36,980 bases of DNA from a virus. Where the stretch lies: IMG/VR virus record IMGVR_UViG_3300021083_000174, positions 1 through 36,980 of that record, one strand, 5' to 3'. The position numbers and the translations under genes are program-made. Every line of letters starts with the position of its first letter. The first letter of the stretch is position 1. Shown here one piece after another: positions 1,690 through 27,223 of this stretch. A model generated the notes under the pieces. The model saw only the letters and a program-made list of their open reading frames with translations, was not told the origin of the DNA and ran no database searches.

Positions 1690-2022
1690 TTAGGCAAACT
1701 TTGAAAATGTATTAGTGTTTGTTGGTTTATCATCAGAAACAAATATCACTGATTCTGGATATTCAACGCCCCAAACTTTAAAATCATTCCCATTGTCATC
1801 TTTGAGTTTCATTGCTCGCGTCCAACGTGAATGTTCAATTAAAATCCATTGCCCGGGCTTGATCTCAGTAACTCCTTCACCAACACAATATACCTGTGCC
1901 CAGCGTGGACGAATACCTTCGCTTTTTCCATTATCGTCTGGAATTATAATTCCATTCAAAGTCCTTAATCCGCCTTCCATATTTGTAACAAGGACCTTAC
2001 CTCTTAATGCTTTTATCTTCAT
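1690..2022 (-). CDS. GroES-family co-chaperonin (T4 gp31-like)
   Basis: 110 residues. It has the GroES order: a beta strand with KVLV near the N-terminus, a mobile-loop-like segment ending GIIIPDD, the VxxVGEGV turn, PGQWILIEH and a terminal VIFVSDD. The segment around IRPRWAQVYCVG is typical of T4-like phage co-chaperonins. It would cap the host GroEL, probably to fold capsid protein. It lies directly upstream of the clamp loader and overlaps the preceding gene by 4 bases. No unusual codons were seen. Confidence 0.85.
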   Translation of the reverse strand: MKIKALRGKVLVTNMEGGLRTLNGIIIPDDNGKSEGIRPRWAQVYCVGEGVTEIKPGQWILIEHSRWTRAMKLKDDNGNDFKVWGVEYPESVIFVSDDKPTNTNTFSKFA

Positions 2023-8367: not shown

Positions 8368-8955
8368 CTATCTTTTTTCGATAATTTTATCCGCTAGTCC
8401 ATTTTTGACTGCTTCGGTAGCACTCATATATGAATCTCTATCCATGATCTTCTGAAAATCATCTTCTGTCAACCCGGCGCTATTATGTTTAACATATAAT
8501 TCTGTTAAAATTTTGTTAGCGGTATCGGCTTCATCAAATTGACGCTTCATATCAGCAACGGTGCCACTTGCCCCACTACTAACTTGATGGACCATATGTC
8601 GAGCGTGTGGTAAAATAAATCTTTTACCCGGAGCGCCGGCATTTGCCAAAAATGACCCCATTGAGCAGGCCTGACCCTGAACAATGGTCACGATATCTGG
8701 CTTGACATATTCCATTACATCATACATTGCTAATCCGGCCGAAACACTTCCACCTGGAGAATTGATATAAATGCTTATATCAGCTTCAGAATTTTCAGCT
8801 TCTAAAAATAATAATTGAGCAACAATAATTTCAGACATTTGTTCTGTTACTGCGCCATTAAGAAAAACAATTCTCTCCTTTAATAGGCGACTTGCTAAAT
8901 CATATGCTCTTTCACCTTTGCTGGTGGATTCTAATACTGTAGGCCAAAAATGCAT
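8368..8955 (-). CDS. clpP: ClpP serine protease subunit
   Basis: 195 residues, the normal size of ClpP. The catalytic triad can be read: Ser98 in QACSMGSF, His123 in HMVHQ and Asp174 in MDRDSYMSA. The INSPGGSV segment of the oxyanion region is intact. It forms the tetradecameric chamber that degrades proteins fed by ClpX or ClpA. This window also has clpX and clpS, so the phage may assemble its own protease. A strong AAGGAG ribosome site precedes ATG 8955. There is little or no propeptide before the ClpP core. Confidence 0.97.
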
Positions 8956-8971: not shown

Positions 8972-8979
8972 GATAAATA
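8972..8979 (+). promoter_or_regulatory. GATAAATA late-promoter-like motif
   Basis: GATAAATA followed by TACAT-ATG at 8985. It resembles the T4 late box TATAAATA but lies only 5 bases before the start codon. A nearly identical arrangement is found at 23265-23272 on the other strand. Confidence 0.4.
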
Positions 8980-10400: not shown

Positions 10401-10428
10401 ATAATACAGTATATAAAATATATGTCAA
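10401..10428 (-). promoter_or_regulatory. Sigma70-type promoter overlapping the spoVR stop codon
   Basis: TTGACA (10423-10428) with a 16-base spacer to TATTAT (10401-10406). The TGA of TTGACA is the stop codon of the upstream SpoVR gene (10425-10427). Confidence 0.65.
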
Positions 10429-11925
10429 GTTGTCAATGTTTCCAAGGTTTCGCCGTTGTCATTAACACTCGTAAAAAGAATATCATATCCCCACAAGTTT
10501 TTAAGATGTGACAATACTCTCATAGCATCTTCATTTATTAGTGTCTGATTATCAACTGTATGATGTATTAATTCCAAATTCCTATTTGAATCTAAATTTG
10601 AATTTACAATTTGAATATTTGGATCAATTCTACTTAATTCATATTGTTTTGATAAAGTTCTACGAATTTCTTTATAGCCTTGATCATTATGTATATTCTT
10701 CACTACATAATAATCTTTATCTTCGTCACCAATTTTGAACATCTTAAAATCTCTCATTAGTTTAGGCGATACGAATTGCTTTATGAAGCTTTCGTCCCTA
10801 TAATTAGCCACTGTATTTTTTATCACACTAATGTAATCCTGATTATTGGCAAATTCTGGAAACCACTCTTTGTCTTCATCAGAAGGATTCTTACAAATTC
10901 GTTCAATATCTCGATAAATCGATAAACCTAATGCATATGGATTGAAATAGGCACCGGCTTTCTCCCAATCTGGCTGATAAACAACATTTGAATGCACTGA
11001 CATAAATTCTAACATCGAACCTTCAGTTAAATATCCTTTGTCATATAATCTATTCATTATATACATATGTGTCCAGCAGGCAAAACCTTCATTCATTACC
11101 TGTGTCTGACGCTGTGGATAGTAGTATTGAGATGTCATTCGAACTATACGAATAACTTCACGCTGCCAAGTCTTTAATTTTGGAGAATATTTTTCCACAA
11201 ATTTTAAAATATTTTCTTCAGGTGCAACTGGAAATCTTGCTTCAGATTCCTGTGAAGATTTATTATTTTTTGGAATTGTTTTATCTAATACTGAATTAAA
11301 TTGTTTTTGTAGATAATTATCCTTATCATTTCGTCTTTTCAATTCGTCAGCAGCATTTAATTTTGGCGGTCTTTTATATCGATCAACACCCTGATGTCTT
11401 AAAGAATGGGCACTGTCTAATATCTTTTCGACTTCTTCATATCCATATTTTTCTTCACATTCACTAATGTATTTTTTAGAAAATGAAAGGTAATCAAGCA
11501 TCCCATCGGCCTGTGTCCATTCCCTAAATAAATAATTATTTTTGAAGAAATGATTATGGCCGAAATCCTGCGTGAGCGATAACAAGTGTTTGAACAGTTG
11601 CTGAATTTTCTTCCATTAAATAATTTATTGTAGGTGATAAATTCAGCACTATCTCATATGCTAATCCACCTTTACCACTTCGATACTTTTGTTCTTCTTC
11701 GACATAACTTTTTCCATAACTCCAATGCTGGTAAGAAATAGGCATTCCAATACTTGCGTATGCATCCAGCATTTGACTTGAATTGATAATTTCTATTTGG
11801 TTTGGGTAGGTATCCAATTTAAGTTCATCAACCGCAATTTCAGCACAAGCATCGTATATATTTTCAATAGTCTTAAAATTCCAATCATTTCCAGTAAATA
11901 ACGGCTTATGTTTTTTCTTAGTCAT
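10425..11925 (-). CDS. ycgB: SpoVR/YcgB family protein with one CGGC +1 shift
   Basis: 499 residues after joining, against about 510 for E. coli YcgB. The N-terminal part (YPNQIEIINSSQMLDAYASI, GMPISYQHWSYGK, LAYEIVLN) runs to IAHAGF then CGG-CCA-TAA. Skipping the C at 11562 (TTT CGG C) gives Gly122 and the family's IAHAGFGHNHFFKNNYLF; the downstream frame continues with QTQVMNEGFA and LSKQYELSRIDPNIQI. The start ATG 11925 overlaps the yeaH stop. SpoVR proteins work with PrkA and YeaH in stress and starvation signalling; biochemical function is not known. Confidence 0.93.
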
Positions 11926-13202
11926 TTGTTTCACTTTTAAAAAATTCTCTAAATACACCCAATACCTTACTACCTTCGGCGACTTTCTTCATATCCATTT
12001 GTTTAAAATTTTGACTTAACTTTTCATAATGCGGCCATAGTCCTCTTGTGTTTGGTTTTTCATCATTGCCAACTTCGAGATACGTAAAATATTGAACTAC
12101 TGGTAATATCTTCGTTGTTAATATATCTATTAGATCTTCGTTATCGATATCAAAATTATCACCATCAGATGCCTGAGATGCAAAGATATTCCAGTCTTCG
12201 ATAGAATATCTTTCATTCAAGATTTTTTCCATTAATTGAAAACCTGTTGATACAACAGTTCCGCCAGATTCCTTTGAATAAAAGAATTCTTCCTCTGTGC
12301 ATTCAGTTGCAGAACTATGGTGTCTGATAAATACAACATCAACTTTTTGATATTTATAACTCAAAAATAAATACAATAAAAGATAAAATCTCTTTGCTAA
12401 ATCTTTTTCATGAGATCCCATTGACCCACTTACATCCATAATGCAGAACATCACAGCTTGATGCTTAGGTATTATTTTCTTATCATAATTTTTATATCGT
12501 AAATCTACAGGATCTAAATAAGTAACTGCTGCGGCTTTCTTTCTCAGAATTGAAATTTCGGATTCAATTTCAAGAATTCGAATTTTATTTAATTCAGTAA
12601 TTGGGTTTTCCTGAATTAATAATTCTAGCTCTTCTGTTAATTCTTTAATTTTTCTTAGTTTTGGATTTTTTAATGCTAGTCGACGACCCAAACTATTAAC
12701 CAAACTTTGTTCAAGGTCTAATGATGAAGGTGTGCCTGAATTAGTAAATCCAGCTCTTACTCTTGTGAATGATTCACTTTTCTTATCACTCTTCTTAACT
12801 AAGTCCGGTAATTCTAATCCATCAAATAATAATTCATTAAATTCATCTTTTGATATTTCAAATTCGAAGTTATCAAGTCCTTCGCCGTCTTGTGAGCCTT
12901 TACCTCCCTTTCCTGCGCCACCCTTGGGCTTTTCAATAAGATCACCAGATAAAAATTCCTTATTGCCGTGGTAATATATATTCTCTATTGCCAGTGCTAC
13001 TATTATTTCTAAATGTAGGCTCTCTTATCCCATCAGTCGAAATATCAACAGCCTGATCATTGTCAGATGTAATAGATCGTTTGGCTAAGGAGTCACTCAC
13101 ACTTTTCTTTAATGATTCCTTAGCCTTTTTCAAAAAACGCTGACGGTTTCCTAAATTCTTACCATTTGGATTTAATCTACGGTCAATTATAGTAAAACTC
13201 AT
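11918..13202 (-). CDS. yeaH: YeaH family (DUF444) VWA-domain protein with one CGGC +1 shift
   Basis: Exactly 427 residues after joining, the length of E. coli YeaH. The N-terminus FTIIDRRLNPNGKN and NRQRFLKK is followed by EYILP then CGG-CAA-TAA. Skipping the C at 12968 (CCA CGG C) gives Gly79 and reads on through a Gly/Lys-rich linker into RVRAGFTNSGTPSSLDLEQS, VMFCIMDVSGSMG (MIDAS DxSxS of the VWA domain) and SDGDNF. Partner of the PrkA kinase in enterobacteria. It lies between prkA and spoVR, the same gene company as in cells. Confidence 0.94.
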
Positions 13203-13217
13203 AGCAGTCCTTTAAAA

Positions 13218-15158
13218 TTAATTCGATCGTTGTATTCTGAGATACCATTCAATGAGTCTTCTGCATTGACGTTCACTATATCCTTTTTTCTTCATTCGAT
13301 TTAAAAATTCATTATGCTTTTCTTGATCTTTCTTACTTGCCTTGGCATTGAATGAAATTACAGGTAAGATTTCTTCAGTTTGGCTGAATATTTTCTTTTC
13401 AACTATTTCCCTTAATTTTTCATAGCTTGTCCACGCAGGATTCTTGCCATTATTGTTTGCCTTAGCACGTAGAATAAAATTAACAACTTCGGCTCTGAAA
13501 TCTTTCGGATTAGCAATACCCGCTGGTTTTTCAATCTTTTCTAATTCGGAATTCAAAATACTACGATCAAACATCTGTCCTGTATCAGGATCCTTATAAT
13601 CAATATCTTGAATCCAATGGTCTGCATAATCTAAGTAACGATCGAAAATTGATTGTCCAAAATCCGAATATGATTCAATGTAACATTTTTGAATTTCATG
13701 ACCAATAAAATCTTTATATGTATCAGTCATATATGTTTTGATTATTTCAAGATATTTATTTTCAATTTCTTCTGGAAATTGCTCATTCCTGATTGCTGTT
13801 TCCAATACATACATCAGATGCACTGGATCCGCACTAACTTCTTCTGAATCAAAATTGAAAGTTTGAGATAATATCTTAAAGGCAAATCTAGTGCTGATTC
13901 CGTCCATTCCTTCATCGACACCAGCAACTTCTTTATATTCGTGCATTGTCTTGGCTTTTGGATCTTTATCTTTTAAATTTTCACCATTATAAACACACAT
14001 CTTTGATACTTGATTTGAATTTTTATGTTCCTTTAATCTTGTAAGGACACTAAAATCAGCCAGCAATTCTAATGTTTTTGGAGCGCATGGTGAATTACCT
14101 AAACTTGATTCACGGATCATCTTTTGATATATTTTTACTTCTTCATCCTTTCTAAGGCAGTATGGAACTTTGACAATATAAATTCTATCTAAAAATGCTT
14201 GATTATTCTTATTATTTCTAAATGTTACCCATTCAGATTCATTGCTATGTGCTAATACAATTCCATGGAATGGAACAGGCCCTAATCCTTCTTCGGTGCC
14301 ATTATAATTACATTCCTGTGTAGCAGTTAGTAATGGATGAAGAACTTTAATAGGAGCTTTAAACATCTCAATAAATTCTAATATGCCTTGGTTTGATAAA
14401 CACAGGCCACCAGTAAAACTATAAGCATCAGGATCGTTTTGTGAATGATATTCTAATTGTCTTATATCAACTTTACCTACTAAACTCGAAATATCCTGAT
14501 TATTATCATCGCCTGGTTCAGTTTTTGAAATACATACCTGATTCAATTTACTTGGCCACAATTTAACTACGGTAAATTTTGAAACATCACCATTAAATTC
14601 TTTTAATCTCTTTAATGCCCACGGACTTGGAATTATATTCAAATATCTGAGAGGAATATTAAATTCCTGCTGAACATGATTCTTGAATTTTTCTTGTGCG
14701 AACAATCCCAATGGTGACTCGTGGATTGGCGATATTTCATCACCGGCCTTGAGTGCATAAATTGGTTGTTTCTCCATTAATTCTTTAAGTTTTTCAGCGA
14801 GGCTTGATTTGGCAGACCCGACTGGACCTAACAAATAAAGTATTTGTTTCTTTTCTTCCAGGCCTTGTGCTGCGTGTTTAAAAAATCCAACTACTCTTTC
14901 AATTGTATCTTCCATTCCATAGAAATCTTCAAACACCTTATATCGATTGATGGTTCTATTCTGAAATATTCTTGATAATTTTGTATCAGTTGAGGTGTCA
15001 ATTCTTTCTGGCGTTCCAATTGCGGAAACCATTCGTTCTGCCGGAGTAGCATATACGAGTGGATCATTCTTACAAAGATTAAGATATTCCTCTAATGAAA
15101 TCTCCTGATCTTTTTTATTATTAATTTCATTAGCAAAAATCTCAAATAATTTTGTCAT
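13218..15158 (-). CDS. prkA: PrkA-family serine protein kinase / AAA+ protein (YeaG)
   Basis: 646 residues, full length for the family. The N-terminal AAA domain has Walker A LLGPVGSAKSSLAEKL near residues 108-122. GLCLSNQGILEFIEMFKAPIKVLHPLL, HGIVLAHSNESEW and NNKNNQAFLDRI are typical PrkA segments; the C-terminal half is the kinase-like region. There is no CGG codon in frame and no break. It is first in the operon prkA-yeaH-spoVR and lies behind a consensus promoter. In E. coli this protein (YeaG) acts in nitrogen-starvation and stationary-phase responses. Confidence 0.96.
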   Translation of the reverse strand: MTKLFEIFANEINNKKDQEISLEEYLNLCKNDPLVYATPAERMVSAIGTPERIDTSTDTKLSRIFQNRTINRYKVFEDFYGMEDTIERVVGFFKHAAQGLEEKKQILYLLGPVGSAKSSLAEKLKELMEKQPIYALKAGDEISPIHESPLGLFAQEKFKNHVQQEFNIPLRYLNIIPSPWALKRLKEFNGDVSKFTVVKLWPSKLNQVCISKTEPGDDNNQDISSLVGKVDIRQLEYHSQNDPDAYSFTGGLCLSNQGILEFIEMFKAPIKVLHPLLTATQECNYNGTEEGLGPVPFHGIVLAHSNESEWVTFRNNKNNQAFLDRIYIVKVPYCLRKDEEVKIYQKMIRESSLGNSPCAPKTLELLADFSVLTRLKEHKNSNQVSKMCVYNGENLKDKDPKAKTMHEYKEVAGVDEGMDGISTRFAFKILSQTFNFDSEEVSADPVHLMYVLETAIRNEQFPEEIENKYLEIIKTYMTDTYKDFIGHEIQKCYIESYSDFGQSIFDRYLDYADHWIQDIDYKDPDTGQMFDRSILNSELEKIEKPAGIANPKDFRAEVVNFILRAKANNNGKNPAWTSYEKLREIVEKKIFSQTEEILPVISFNAKASKKDQEKHNEFLNRMKKKGYSERQCRRLIEWYLRIQRSN

Positions 15159-22221: not shown

Positions 22222-23259
22222 TTAAGACTTGCCAAATCGATTATGATCTACCATCAGTTTATATTCTCTCCACCAGACCTGATTTTGCTGTATATATGGT
22301 TCGGCTTCTGGCCATCGACTTTTGATTATATTTTTGGCATAGTAATATGCATACTCAGGATCTTTCATTATGTATGGTTCGGCTTCAGGCCATCGCGCTC
22401 TGATTACATATATGGTATAGTAATATGCATACTCAGGATCTTTCATTATGTATGGTTCGGCTTCTGGCCATCGACTTTTGATTACATCTCTGGCATAGTA
22501 ATATGCTTTCTCTGGTTTACTAACTATGTTCTTTTCATAATCTTTAAACAACTTCGATGTAACTGGATTTTCTAAACGGAAATAATCCAATTGTTCCTCT
22601 GACATTGGACTATCAGTTGCATCCATAAATTGCATAGTGCCGAAGTGAAACTGATATTTGTCTCCATTTGGCATTATATAGATGTATAGCGGGCTGGCGG
22701 GTGTATAATAACTATGGAACGCATTGTCTTTCTTCGCCGCAGTACACCATTTAGTGCCACGCCCGAAATAACAAGAAGCTGCTTCGGTTTTCGGCACAAC
22801 AATCATTCCATCTGGGCCTTTGTATAAGACATTGGCTTGAGAATACATTTCATCACGAAGTTTCTTTTCTTCTGCATTACCAGTCGTAACTTCTTGTTTC
22901 TGGAATGGCTTCAACGCGGCATAGAGATCAGTGAGCTTTTTATATTGATTTATATCTTTGTTAGGTAACTGAGATTTAACTCGTTCGAATTCCTGTAGTT
23001 CATCATTGATTCTTGATACATCTTCCAGTTTAAATTGACCACTAAGATAGATATTAACTATCCATTGTAGGTATTTCTGATTAGGAGTGGGGTCTGCCTC
23101 TGATAACACATTTAATATTTCAGTAGGCTGGACACCATATGCTTCATCTGGGCCGTAATCATCTTTGAGTCGTTGAATTAAGCTGTCGCCTTGTTTTTTG
23201 GCGATGAATGGAATTTTATCTTCGAAAAGATTTGATTGAAATAGTTCGTATAGGCGCAT
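22222..23259 (-). CDS. Repeat protein with GRGTKWCTA motif
   Basis: 345 residues, start MRLYELFQSN. A central domain contains CYFGRGTKWCTAAKKDN and LYIYIMPNGDKYQFHF, a motif I associate with conserved proteins of large phages but cannot assign. The C-terminus has three 26-residue repeats, each with AYYY and RWPEAEPYI. The start codon is 5 bases after GATAAATA, with no ribosome site. Possibly a virion or late protein. Confidence 0.75.
   Translation of the reverse strand: MRLYELFQSNLFEDKIPFIAKKQGDSLIQRLKDDYGPDEAYGVQPTEILNVLSEADPTPNQKYLQWIVNIYLSGQFKLEDVSRINDELQEFERVKSQLPNKDINQYKKLTDLYAALKPFQKQEVTTGNAEEKKLRDEMYSQANVLYKGPDGMIVVPKTEAASCYFGRGTKWCTAAKKDNAFHSYYTPASPLYIYIMPNGDKYQFHFGTMQFMDATDSPMSEEQLDYFRLENPVTSKLFKDYEKNIVSKPEKAYYYARDVIKSRWPEAEPYIMKDPEYAYYYTIYVIRARWPEAEPYIMKDPEYAYYYAKNIIKSRWPEAEPYIQQNQVWWREYKLMVDHNRFGKS
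22282..22515 (-). repeat. Three tandem 78-bp coding repeats
   Basis: Units 22438-22515, 22360-22437 and 22282-22359 encode PE-x-AYYY...RWPEAEPYIMKD three times. DNA identity between units is high (the tatggttcggctt segment recurs every 78 bases), so the repeats arose by recent duplication. Confidence 0.9.
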
Positions 23260-23264
23260 TTGTA

Positions 23265-23272
23265 TATTTATC
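23265..23272 (-). promoter_or_regulatory. GATAAATA late-promoter-like motif
   Basis: GATAAATATACAA-ATG: the motif ends 5 bases before ATG 23259, the same layout as at 8972. Confidence 0.4.
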
Positions 23273-24356: not shown

Positions 24357-24736
24357 TCATATCCTTTTAATTTAAGAATTACTTTTTCTTCTGACATTCT
24401 CATCGCAGTCTTTAAAACTCTATATTTCACTATTGGATATAGTAAAATTTTATCCAATGTAGTTATTTTATTATACCAATATCCATCGCTATTTTTAAAT
24501 CTCAAGAAAAATCTGCCATTACAGTGCCACATGATTAATTCCGAATTACGTGGATGGCGAGATACAATAGACCACCGGCCAGGATAATCATGAAAATCAT
24601 CAGAATTTCTTGATTCAATCCACAAGTTCCAGTCATTTTTTCTCCAATTAATAGAATCATCCATTAATTTATCCATCATCACTTTACCTGTAGTCGACAG
24701 CCACCTTTTTCTAAAGGAATGCGACAACAGTATCAT
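24353..24736 (-). CDS. Small phage protein; contains the only unshifted CGGT
   Basis: 127 residues: Trp-rich (WNLWIESRNS, PGRWSIVSRHPR), ending MSEEKVILKLKGYE, the small-protein ending seen elsewhere in the window. Codon 54 is CGG followed by T at 24577 (GGC CGG T); the frame runs on sensibly for over 70 codons, so here it is probably Arg. This is the one exception to the CGGY shift rule that I found. It ends in the start of 23301-24356. Function unknown. Confidence 0.7.
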   Translation of the reverse strand: MILLSHSFRKRWLSTTGKVMMDKLMDDSINWRKNDWNLWIESRNSDDFHDYPGRWSIVSRHPRNSELIMWHCNGRFFLRFKNSDGYWYNKITTLDKILLYPIVKYRVLKTAMRMSEEKVILKLKGYE

Positions 24737-25038
24737 TAGGATTCCTGATATGTAATTTTCAATGGAAATCCATTAGCGCGAGCAAACATAGTAGCTGCTT
24801 CGGTTTTCTCTTCGGCGATTTCTTTTGTATAGATTCCTGCCACACCAAATCCATTGACATGAATCTGCTTTGTTAAATCAAGAGATTCTTCGAGTGATTT
24901 GTAGAATATAGATTGCAATACTTCGATCACAAATTGGAATGTAGTAACATTATCATTGTGAAGTATAACCTGATATTTCTTCGGTTCTTCAACTTTGATT
25001 GCTTCTTCGGTCTTATCCAGTACGTCTGCATGTGCCAT
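24736..25038 (-). CDS. clpS: ClpS-like adaptor
   Basis: 100 residues. YQVILHNDNVTTFQFVIEVL matches the ClpS signature (HNDxxT...F), followed by a helix (LTKQIHVNGFGVAGIYTKEIAEEKTEAA). ClpS binds N-degron substrates and hands them to ClpA; no clpA is visible here. In a phage it could redirect host or phage-encoded Clp protease. It has its own promoter. Confidence 0.9.
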   Translation of the reverse strand: MAHADVLDKTEEAIKVEEPKKYQVILHNDNVTTFQFVIEVLQSIFYKSLEESLDLTKQIHVNGFGVAGIYTKEIAEEKTEAATMFARANGFPLKITYQES

Positions 25039-25121: not shown

Positions 25122-25532
25122 TTATTTAATCGGAATTCTTTTTGGAAGTAGCTGATCTGGTAAATTTTTGACAAATTTAACAGTAAGCATTCCGTCCTCT
25201 AATGTTGCTTCCGAAATTTCATAATATTCAGCAATATAGAATCTCTTTATGAATTGTCGAGACGCGATTCCTTGATGCTTATAATTAGGCTCTGCTGTGA
25301 TCTTTGTTTTTTCACCCTGAATAGTAATTTCGCCTTGGTGCGACGTTATATTCACTTCTTCTTTTTTAAAGCCGGCCACTGCTAATTCTAATATTATCGA
25401 ATCATCTGTCTGAAAAATATTATGTGGTGGATAACCAGTTGATGATGGGGTTTGTAAGTTTTTAAAAACTTCATTAAACCCAATTGATAGACTATTAAAG
25501 CGGTCAAACATACGCTCAATTTCATTTTTCAT
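25122..25532 (-). CDS. Small heat-shock protein (HSP20/IbpA type)
   Basis: 136 residues from ATG 25532, with AGGAG upstream. It has the alpha-crystallin core (YPPHNIFQTDDSIILELAV; GFKKEEVNITSHQGEITIQG; HQGIASRQFIKRFYI) and the terminal I-x-I (RIPIK). It holds unfolding proteins for refolding. The leader has the features of a ROSE RNA thermometer. It sits among clpX, clpS and S21 genes. An earlier in-frame TTG is not needed. Confidence 0.95.
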   Translation of the reverse strand: MKNEIERMFDRFNSLSIGFNEVFKNLQTPSSTGYPPHNIFQTDDSIILELAVAGFKKEEVNITSHQGEITIQGEKTKITAEPNYKHQGIASRQFIKRFYIAEYYEISEATLEDGMLTVKFVKNLPDQLLPKRIPIK

Positions 25533-25538
25533 GATATT

Positions 25539-25602
25539 ACTCCTTTTTATAAGCAAGTTAAAATTCGCAGTATATTTAAGTAGCGACCATCTGCGAATGG
25601 TC
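25539..25602 (-). promoter_or_regulatory. ROSE-type RNA thermometer in the hsp20 leader
   Basis: The last hairpin (25539-25558) pairs ACUUGCUU with AAGGAGU and so hides the Shine-Dalgarno; one U is bulged and one G-G pair is present, the hallmark UUGCU/AGGA of ROSE elements. Upstream are two alternative stems, GACCAT/ATGGTC (25585-25602) and ATTCGCAG/CTGCGAAT (25563-25598), which cannot form together. Confidence 0.7.
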
Positions 25603-25649
25603 TCCCGAAATCATATCCTCAAAAGAATATGCATCTACTTTATTTAAAC

Positions 25650-25679
25650 AATTAGAACCCCATATTGGGCGTTCTAATT
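25650..25679. terminator. Hairpin after the S21 gene, possible terminator
   Basis: 9-bp stem AATTAGAAC / GTTCTAATT, extended by CCC/GGG with one bulged base, loop of five. The U-tract is good on the plus strand (TTTTATTT) but weak on the minus strand, where it is needed. It might instead protect the S21 mRNA 3' end. Confidence 0.5.
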
Positions 25680-25711
25680 TTATTTATCATCGAAATCAAT
25701 AATTCGACGAT

Positions 25712-25972
25712 TTAATACGGTTGATCTCGATGCCATTCGCCGGCATCAATCATTGATTCTACTTTCTTTTCCCAACGCTTACGAGCCATTTTCCTCTTTC
25801 TTTGTTTTTCAACACTTTTTGGTTCATAAAACATCTTATCCTTTAAGTCTTTTAATAGACCAGAATCCTGTGTCATTTTTGTAAACTGTCGCATTGCAGA
25901 ATTAAAATTCTCCTTGACTTCTACACATAATCCATTAACTTTAAAATCTTTTCTTTTGTTCATTATAGCCAT
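25712..25972 (-). CDS. Ribosomal protein bS21 homologue
   Basis: 86 residues. FNSAMRQFTKMTQDSGLLKDLKDKMFYEPKSVEKQRKRK is the S21 pattern: the AxRxFKK helix, the GxLxxLKxRxxYEKPSxKRKRK stretch, a basic tail. S21 sits on the 30S near the anti-Shine-Dalgarno sequence; phage copies probably replace host S21 and favour phage mRNAs. With the frame breaks in this window, a phage-encoded ribosomal protein is of special interest. Confidence 0.9.
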   Translation of the reverse strand: MAIMNKRKDFKVNGLCVEVKENFNSAMRQFTKMTQDSGLLKDLKDKMFYEPKSVEKQRKRKMARKRWEKKVESMIDAGEWHRDQPY

Positions 25973-25984
25973 TTAGTCCTTTTA

Positions 25985-27223
25985 TTAATTATTTTCATTG
26001 TTTACAAGCTTCTTCTTTTCAGTCTTGTAAACATATCTAGCCAGCCCTTGTCCATCAATTGCTACTTTAGTCACACCTTCTTTTGCTAATCTTGGTAATA
26101 GAAATTGAGTTTGTTGTAATACTTTTTCAATAATACCTCTCAATCCACGAGCACCAATTTTTTGTTTTATACATTCACTGGCAATCGAATTGAGATATTT
26201 ATCATCGAATTCTAAATCTACATTTTCAATTTTAAATAATGCCTTAAATTGACTTACTATACTATTCTTCGGTTCTTTTAATATTCTCACCAATGATTCA
26301 GTATCTAAATCATCAAATACAACCACGATTGGACACCTGCCAACAAATTCAGGTATTAATCCATATTTGATCAAATCTTCAGATGTCACTGTTTTAATTA
26401 TGTCATCATCTTTGACTAGATTTTTAATCGTAGCACCAATACCAATAGTCGATACATCTCTTGATTTTTTAATAATATCACTTAATCCGACAAATGCGCC
26501 GCTACAAATGAATAATATATTTTTAGTATCAAAATCAGCAGTTTCCATACGATCAAAGACATTTGTTACTTTAATTATGGTTCCTTCGATTATCTTTAAT
26601 AGTGCTTGTTGAACACCTTCACCACTGACATCTCGAGTAACTGTGCTACTTTCACTTTTTCTGGATTTTTTATCAATTTCATCTAGGAAAATTATACCTC
26701 GCTGAGCTTTTTCTAAGTTGCCACCTGCATTCTGAATAAGCAAGTCAATCAAATTTTCAGCATCCTGACCGACATATCCAGCTTCTGTTAATGTTGTTGC
26801 ATCGGCAATAACATATGGTAAATCAAATAATTTAGCAATGGTTTTTACCAATAGAGTCTTACCACAGCCAGATGAGCCTATCATCAATACATTTGATTTA
26901 TCAATTTCTGTATCTTGCTGGTTATTATTGATTCTCTTGAAATGATTATACATTGCTACAGAAATAGAAATTTTAGCTGCATCTTGTCCGACAATATACT
27001 TATCGAGATATTCTTTAATTTCTTCCGGACTAAGAATTTTGTCTTTAATTTCAACTAATGGTGAATCTTTATTATCGTGTAAAATCTGATGTAGATAATC
27101 TACGCAAGTGTCACAGATATATAAATTATTATTATTATAAATAGGTCCTTCAATCATTTGGTTTACTTGTTTTCTACCTGAACTACAAAAGGAACAGGTA
27201 ATATTTTTTTCAATTTCAGACAT
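25985..27223 (-). CDS. clpX: ClpX ATPase, unfoldase for ClpP
   Basis: 412 residues. Zinc ligands Cys10, Cys13, Cys37 and Cys40; Walker A MIGSSGCGKTLLVKTI; Walker B GIIFLDEIDKKSRK; GYVGQDAENLIDLL, GEGVQQALLKIIEGT and GARGLRGIIEKVL are intact. The IGF loop that docks to ClpP reads T-IGI-G, so Phe is replaced by Ile. It unfolds tagged proteins for ClpP. The start follows AAGGAATT. Confidence 0.97.
   Translation of the reverse strand: MSEIEKNITCSFCSSGRKQVNQMIEGPIYNNNNLYICDTCVDYLHQILHDNKDSPLVEIKDKILSPEEIKEYLDKYIVGQDAAKISISVAMYNHFKRINNNQQDTEIDKSNVLMIGSSGCGKTLLVKTIAKLFDLPYVIADATTLTEAGYVGQDAENLIDLLIQNAGGNLEKAQRGIIFLDEIDKKSRKSESSTVTRDVSGEGVQQALLKIIEGTIIKVTNVFDRMETADFDTKNILFICSGAFVGLSDIIKKSRDVSTIGIGATIKNLVKDDDIIKTVTSEDLIKYGLIPEFVGRCPIVVVFDDLDTESLVRILKEPKNSIVSQFKALFKIENVDLEFDDKYLNSIASECIKQKIGARGLRGIIEKVLQQTQFLLPRLAKEGVTKVAIDGQGLARYVYKTEKKKLVNNENN

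Follow-up and report, generated by a model that had tools for sequence, protein, structure and literature searches.

A ROSE-like leader, probably an RNA thermometer, before the small heat-shock gene of phages

ROSE RNA thermometers are recognized by a U(U/C)GCU motif that pairs imperfectly with the Shine-Dalgarno (SD) sequence, by a bulged G, and by the position of this helix as the last of two to four hairpins (PMC11182007, PMC11342760). In the ROSE-like thermometer of the Providencia stuartii oppF gene, the SD stem alone is sufficient (PMC11342760). The RNA thermometers of phages counted as of 2024 are those of lambda cIII and SPbeta blyA only, plus a sigma70 gene (PMC11182007). The small heat-shock protein (sHsp) IbpA of E. 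coli represses its own synthesis through its leader, an activity for which the protein requires R93, an aromatic residue at position 34, and basic residues at 97 and 98 (PMC10474464).

Phages also carry sHsp genes. The hsp20 gene is one of 25 core genes present in all 16 cyanophages compared, where a role in capsid scaffolding has been guessed (PMC3037559), and another guessed role is host heat survival (PMC7674155); a 2013 study of marine virus sHsps leaves their leaders unmentioned (PMC3827213). No published report of a ROSE-like thermometer on a phage hsp20 gene was found in the literature searched, subscription papers and preprints aside, and a thermometer of this kind common to T4-like and jumbo phages appears to be unreported. 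What is new is the presence of the element across phages and its coupling to a promoter, the RNA class itself being already known. The DNA analysed here (the window) is a virus record of 36,980 bases, and the leader of its hsp20 gene is very probably a ROSE-like RNA thermometer that is transcribed from a late promoter, melts in heat and is perhaps bound by the sHsp.

The hsp20 gene and its leader in the window

The hsp20 gene starts with the ATG at 25532 of the minus strand and its product matches the HSP20 domain PF00011 with 54.4 bits, which secures the identity given to the gene by an earlier sequence-only reading and places a small heat-shock gene downstream of the element, the classical ROSE location. 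The preceding ORF stops at 25712, leaving a leader of about 180 nt. The features of the window discussed below are the following, all on the minus strand.

1690 to 2022, minus strand: GroES-like ORF (ORF reading)
8368 to 8955, minus strand: ClpP ORF (ORF reading)
24736 to 25038, minus strand: clpS-like gene, downstream neighbour of hsp20 and outside the element (ORF reading)
25122 to 25532, minus strand: hsp20, 136 aa, the gene proposed to be controlled (PF00011, alignments, ORF reading)
25539 to 25558, minus strand: ROSE-type SD hairpin, with the anti-SD ACUUGCUU at 25551-25558, bulged G25554, loop at 25546-25550 and SD arm AAGGAGU at 25539-25545 (sequence, folding, covariance model R2, family comparison)
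25564 to 25597, minus strand: competing helix of UUCGCAG (25591-25597) with CUGCGAA (25564-25570), read from the sequence, which excludes the next hairpin; unconserved in relatives
25585 to 25602, minus strand: extra hairpin GACCAUU-CGCA-GAUGGUC, predicted by folding, in a window-specific insertion
25612 to 25631, minus strand: extra hairpin CAUAUUCU-UUUG-AGGAUAUG, predicted by folding, in the window-specific insertion, unconserved
25650 to 25679, minus strand: hairpin I, AAUUAGAAC-G-CCC..GGG-GUUCUAAUU, apex YGCC..GGR with an unpaired G (alignment to the clade, R2 match, family covariation)
25681 to 25688, minus strand: putative promoter, T4-type late box GATAAATA (same place in the clade of contigs L103-L126)
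25985 to 27223, minus strand: ClpX ORF (ORF reading)

The leader ends at 25558-25539 with 5'-ACUUGCUU AUAAA AAGGAGU, which forms the outer pairs A25558-U25539, C25557-G25540, U25556-A25541 and U25555.G25542 and, beyond the bulged G25554, the inner pairs C25553-G25543, U25552-A25544 and U25551-A25545, closed by the loop AUAAA. The imperfect pairing of UUGCU (25552-25556) with the AGGA of the SD (25541-25544), already proposed in the sequence-only reading, is confirmed; the bulged base is a G and not the U named there, and the G-G pair it described is a contact known only from solved ROSE structures that cannot be read from sequence. Energy folding of the window alone (ViennaRNA) prefers a slipped, unbulged register, and the SD is hidden in both registers. 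A scan of both strands finds a single place in the window where a start codon follows the motif, and none at the GroES-like, ClpP, ClpS and ClpX genes. A fourU thermometer was also considered and set aside, its four consecutive U against the SD being missing from the anti-SD ACUUGCUU.

The leader follows the plan of two to four hairpins of which the last holds the SD, and both hairpin I and the SD hairpin align to the clade. Between them the window has an insertion of about 85 nt that relatives lack. The two mutually exclusive stems pointed out earlier are indeed present (25596-25602 with 25585-25591 excludes 25591-25597 with 25564-25570), but they lie in this insertion and are absent from relatives, which takes away the importance given to them; the competing helix is used in the best match of model R2 and in the match to Rfam ROSE_3. 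The extent first assigned to the element, 25539-25602, includes the SD hairpin but misses hairpin I, with which the element reaches 25679, and the late promoter.

The late promoter box of the window stands directly 5' of hairpin I. Since the box adjoins hairpin I on this side, the mRNA 5' end probably lies at hairpin I. In the clade, the box reads GATAAATA in nearly all contigs and GGTAAATA in L117, and over the wider collection, 36 of the 64 leaders that have hairpin I show a late, TTAAATA or TATAAT box at most 26 nt from it, compared with 2.6% of random stretches. Further GATAAATA boxes occur at or shortly before gene starts at 23272, 19089, 15202 and 4106 on the minus strand and at 8972 on the plus strand, as would be expected if GATAAATA is the late promoter of the window's phage.

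Some other features of the window deserve mention. ORF reading gives a proteostasis set of GroES-like, ClpP, ClpS, Hsp20 and ClpX proteins, the ClpX being 46-47% identical to those of phages Phosso and Atu_ph07, in which hsp20 and clpS likewise lie close together, separated by thymidine kinase. A block at 10425-15158 (minus strand) resembles, as far as its ORFs were read, the bacterial set of PrkA (YeaG), YeaH (VWA domain) and SpoVR (YcgB), and its PrkA ORF shares about 60% identity with homologues in uncultured phages of 630-640 kb and 64% with that of Enterobacter phage LAU1. The ORF at 22222-23259 (minus strand) has near-identical repeats in its C-terminal part (RWPEAEPYIMKDPEYAYYYA...).

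Conservation of the leader and covariance-model searches

Taken alone, the hairpin of the window is weak evidence for ROSE. Because it could be due to chance, such a hairpin appearing in 688 of 20,000 dinucleotide shuffles of the window's upstream part (3.4%), relatives were collected from phage records and, via protein alignments, from viral contigs. A first set of 101 phage hsp20 genes gave 66 non-redundant leaders, 65 of them with an SD. The U(U/C)GCU motif lies just 5' of the SD in 57 of these 65 leaders and in 7 of 176 other ORFs of the same loci. The complete SD hairpin with its bulged G is present in 79 of 92 non-redundant phage hsp20 leaders and in 2 of 140 controls, both of which are themselves hsp20 leaders. 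This comparison across phages is, at the level of sequence, decisive for a ROSE-like element, and it upholds the earlier claim of an SD-sequestering element before a phage sHsp gene. The carriers include the Pelagibacter phages HTVC115P and Mosig, Methylophilales phage Melnitz-3, Agrobacterium phage Atu_ph07 and Sinorhizobium phage Phosso, as well as the cyanophages S-SM2, S-PM2, P-SSM2, P-SSM4, Syn33 and P-HM1.

The bulged G is kept even in most exceptions to the hairpin motif, but two Vibrio phages and the contig L039 do without it. In the leader of S-TIM5 the sequence is CCAC-G-CUU/AAG-GUGG, where the SD itself has changed and the opposite arm compensates, and three others (L019, L048 and L050) have the variant UUAUC-G-UC/GA-GAUAA. 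The ROSE register, with at least 3 pairs outside the bulge, can be formed by 79 of 86 leaders, while the slipped register, in which the G is paired, is extendable in 22. Most leaders also have the upstream hairpin, in whose core YGCC..GGR a bulged G adjoins a Y.G or Y-R pair; as the same arrangement is found in the SD hairpin, the two hairpins share one design. The presence of this bulged-G core (Y-G-C / G-R) in hairpin I, which has no SD, suggests that the bulged G has a structural role beyond pairing with the SD.

Over the whole element, compensatory change amounts to 85 double-changed cells, where shuffles give 23.6 and slid controls no more than 10. In the covariation alignment, which was fitted to a model though its seed consists of eight cyanophage leaders only, 93% of cells are paired, and the flanks of hairpin I differ freely in sequence while staying paired; its shift control is blurred by G runs, and structure-pair counting was used instead. 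No structure came out of RNAalifold when it was run on a plain MAFFT alignment of 61 leaders, in which the variable loops misalign the SD, and anchored counts and a seed of equal-length leaders took the place of that alignment. On this comparative evidence, a weak helix with a bulge, itself conserved, holds the SD, and a conserved hairpin precedes it.

The clade of the window comprises 24 contigs (L103-L126) of up to 369 kb, with hsp20 products 45-55% identical. Wherever the leader is complete, it runs from the late box through hairpin I and up to two extra hairpins to the SD hairpin and the ATG, and the window fits this plan with GATAAATA at 25688-25681, hairpin I at 25679-25650 and the SD hairpin at 25558-25539. 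In S-SRM01 (L098), P-HM2 (L099) and P-HM1 (L214), the annotated hsp20 start lies at the thermometer or 5' of it, which places the regulatory leader inside the annotated coding sequence, and the start is likely the ATG that follows the SD hairpin.

Covariance-model searches agree with the counts. A model built from eight cyanophage leaders (R1) gave 42 matches up to E 1 over 352 kb, 41 of them hsp20 leaders. The matches of R1 were used to build a second model (R2), with the window left out of training, and R2 matches the window at 25539-25598 (26.4 bits, E 4.7e-5) and at 25634-25678 (17.9 bits), both in the hsp20 leader; elsewhere in the window it finds nothing below E 3, the next match having E 3.4. 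When R2 is run on 21 phage records, mainly complete genomes, the hsp20 leader is the best match in 20, and S-TIM5 gives no match. R2 also finds a Pseudomonas ROSE_3 copy recognized by Rfam (25.7 bits) and betaproteobacterial hsp20 leaders, those of a Burkholderiaceae bin and Methylophilaceae LSUCC0401. As a model trained on phages matches bacterial ROSE and hsp20 leaders, the phage RNA is of the same kind as proteobacterial ROSE.

The search with Rfam ROSE models, advised in the sequence-only reading, did not recover the element: ROSE_3 (RF02523) reaches 15.9 bits in the window against a cut-off of 43, with E 0.8, although this low-scoring match covers the model from end to end and stops at the start codon. 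Of the phage leaders scanned, only that of the unverified Pseudomonas record L010 reaches the cut-off of a ROSE family (RF00435, RF01832, RF02523), and proteobacterial hsp20 leaders with the same motif also fall below the Rfam ROSE cut-offs. These cut-offs miss the phage branch of leaders. Rfam matches to snoR28, SAM-V, DUF2815 and CRISPR-DR47 were set aside as far under their cut-offs.

A model for temperature control and its alternatives

Transcription would start from the T4-type late promoter at 25681-25688, so that the mRNA would begin at hairpin I and carry the element in full. At ordinary temperature, its SD AAGGAGU would be held by ACUUGCUU in a short helix broken by the bulged G and a U.G pair, a structure taken from the comparison, and in this state the helix would be expected to keep ribosomes off. 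By the example of bacterial ROSE, warming would melt the weak SD helix and leave the stable upstream hairpin folded, and the phage chaperone would consequently be made when host and phage proteins start unfolding. The sHsp may also bind the leader and repress its own translation in the manner of E. coli IbpA, as its conserved residues suggest. By analogy we infer temperature control of phage hsp20.

One alternative is that the main function of the element is to bind the sHsp or host IbpA: free sHsp would repress its own mRNA until aggregates titrate it during infection, and the leader would sense protein damage and respond to temperature only indirectly. The window protein has Y34, R92, K96 and R97 at the places required in E. 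coli IbpA, a match of residues alone, and among the phage proteins the arginine is found in 82 of 84 encoded behind a leader with the motif and in 5 of 8 behind a leader that lacks it. However, this correlation could stem from shared ancestry alone, position 97 is often not basic in phage proteins, and self-repression in bacteria adds to the thermometer and does not replace it. As the main function of the element, sHsp binding is unlikely.

Folding with ViennaRNA gives the SD of hsp20 leaders a lower accessibility than that of control genes at all temperatures (p about 1e-10), with medians of 0.24 and 0.51 at 37 °C (p 3e-11), and predicts that the SD opens only gradually on warming from 10 to 42 °C, in a nearest-neighbour scheme that cannot model non-canonical ROSE contacts. 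The gradual opening would suit a conserved weak hairpin that tunes hsp20 to a low, constant translation rate with no response to temperature. What is conserved, however, across distant phages and proteobacterial hsp20 leaders is a specific bulged-G design and not stability alone, and such static tuning seems quite improbable.

An early/late hairpin switch is known for some T4 genes, in which case the hairpin would silence early read-through while late transcripts start inside the leader and escape it. Late-promoter-like boxes do occur within the leader, but in the window's clade and in others a box lies upstream of hairpin I, so that late transcripts keep the whole element, and hairpin I covaries, which a switch does not need. 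A transcript start at hairpin I argues against a switch of this type, which was rejected on promoter position and has very little probability left. Chance resemblance in an AT-rich leader, to which the 3.4% of shuffles and the E value of 0.8 with ROSE_3 would point, is refuted by conservation in relatives, with all comparative tests against it, and its probability is negligible.

The thermometer thus stays the preferred reading. Its wider form, in which a conserved viral branch of ROSE controls hsp20 in T4-like and jumbo phages whose hosts are proteobacteria, SAR11 and cyanobacteria, with phage-type promoters set against the element and with heat- and perhaps sHsp-gated translation acting as a viral proteostasis sensor, is reasonably probable. 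If true, phage RNA thermometers, so far a handful of separate cases (PMC11182007), would become a conserved class of wide distribution, and if hsp20 is switched on by warming, the replication of marine phages would be tied to temperature via one short RNA. The Rfam ROSE cut-offs overlook these leaders, and some hsp20 genes are annotated from a start 5' of the one that is probably correct.

Origin and comparison with known thermometers

The 31 nearest cellular sHsp loci come from proteobacterial records in 30 cases and from a planctomycete contig in one, and most of them have ROSE-type leaders, which makes a proteobacterial source for gene and leader together plausible. This much agrees with the proteobacterial origin proposed in the sequence-only reading; the host is not identified by it, as cyanophages also carry the element, which therefore says nothing on the host of the window's phage. 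The nearest cellular locus, in a Methylococcaceae bin (L183, 49% identical), has a phage-like hsp20 with a phage-type leader, and so does the Planctomycetaceae contig (L207), which also has a TATAAATA box; both may be mis-binned phage.

Like the proteobacterial ROSE elements of ibpA and hsp genes (RF00435, RF01832, RF02523), the phage element pairs U(U/C)GCU with the SD and leaves a G bulged, is preceded by one or more upstream hairpins, belongs to an sHsp gene and keeps the distance to the start codon. Unlike them, it stands on a viral gene with a late-promoter box against the element, is AT-rich and falls below every Rfam cut-off, and the window has in addition an insertion between the hairpins. 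The oppF thermometer of Providencia stuartii shares with it UUGCU, the bulged G and U.G pairs with the SD, but belongs to a bacterial ABC transporter gene and its heat induction has been measured (PMC11342760). Lambda cIII and SPbeta blyA are likewise thermometers in phage mRNA, but they are not of the ROSE type as described (blyA is a fourU) and concern single genes of temperate phages rather than a family shared among phages (PMC11182007). For IbpA self-repression (PMC10474464), the required arginine and aromatic residue are conserved in the phage proteins. In Synechocystis hsp17, an sHsp gene also has its ribosome site in a hairpin, but there one hairpin, interrupted by a 1x3 internal bulge, encloses both the ribosome site and the start codon (PMC4477652), and cyanophages have the two-hairpin type with bulged G instead of this design.
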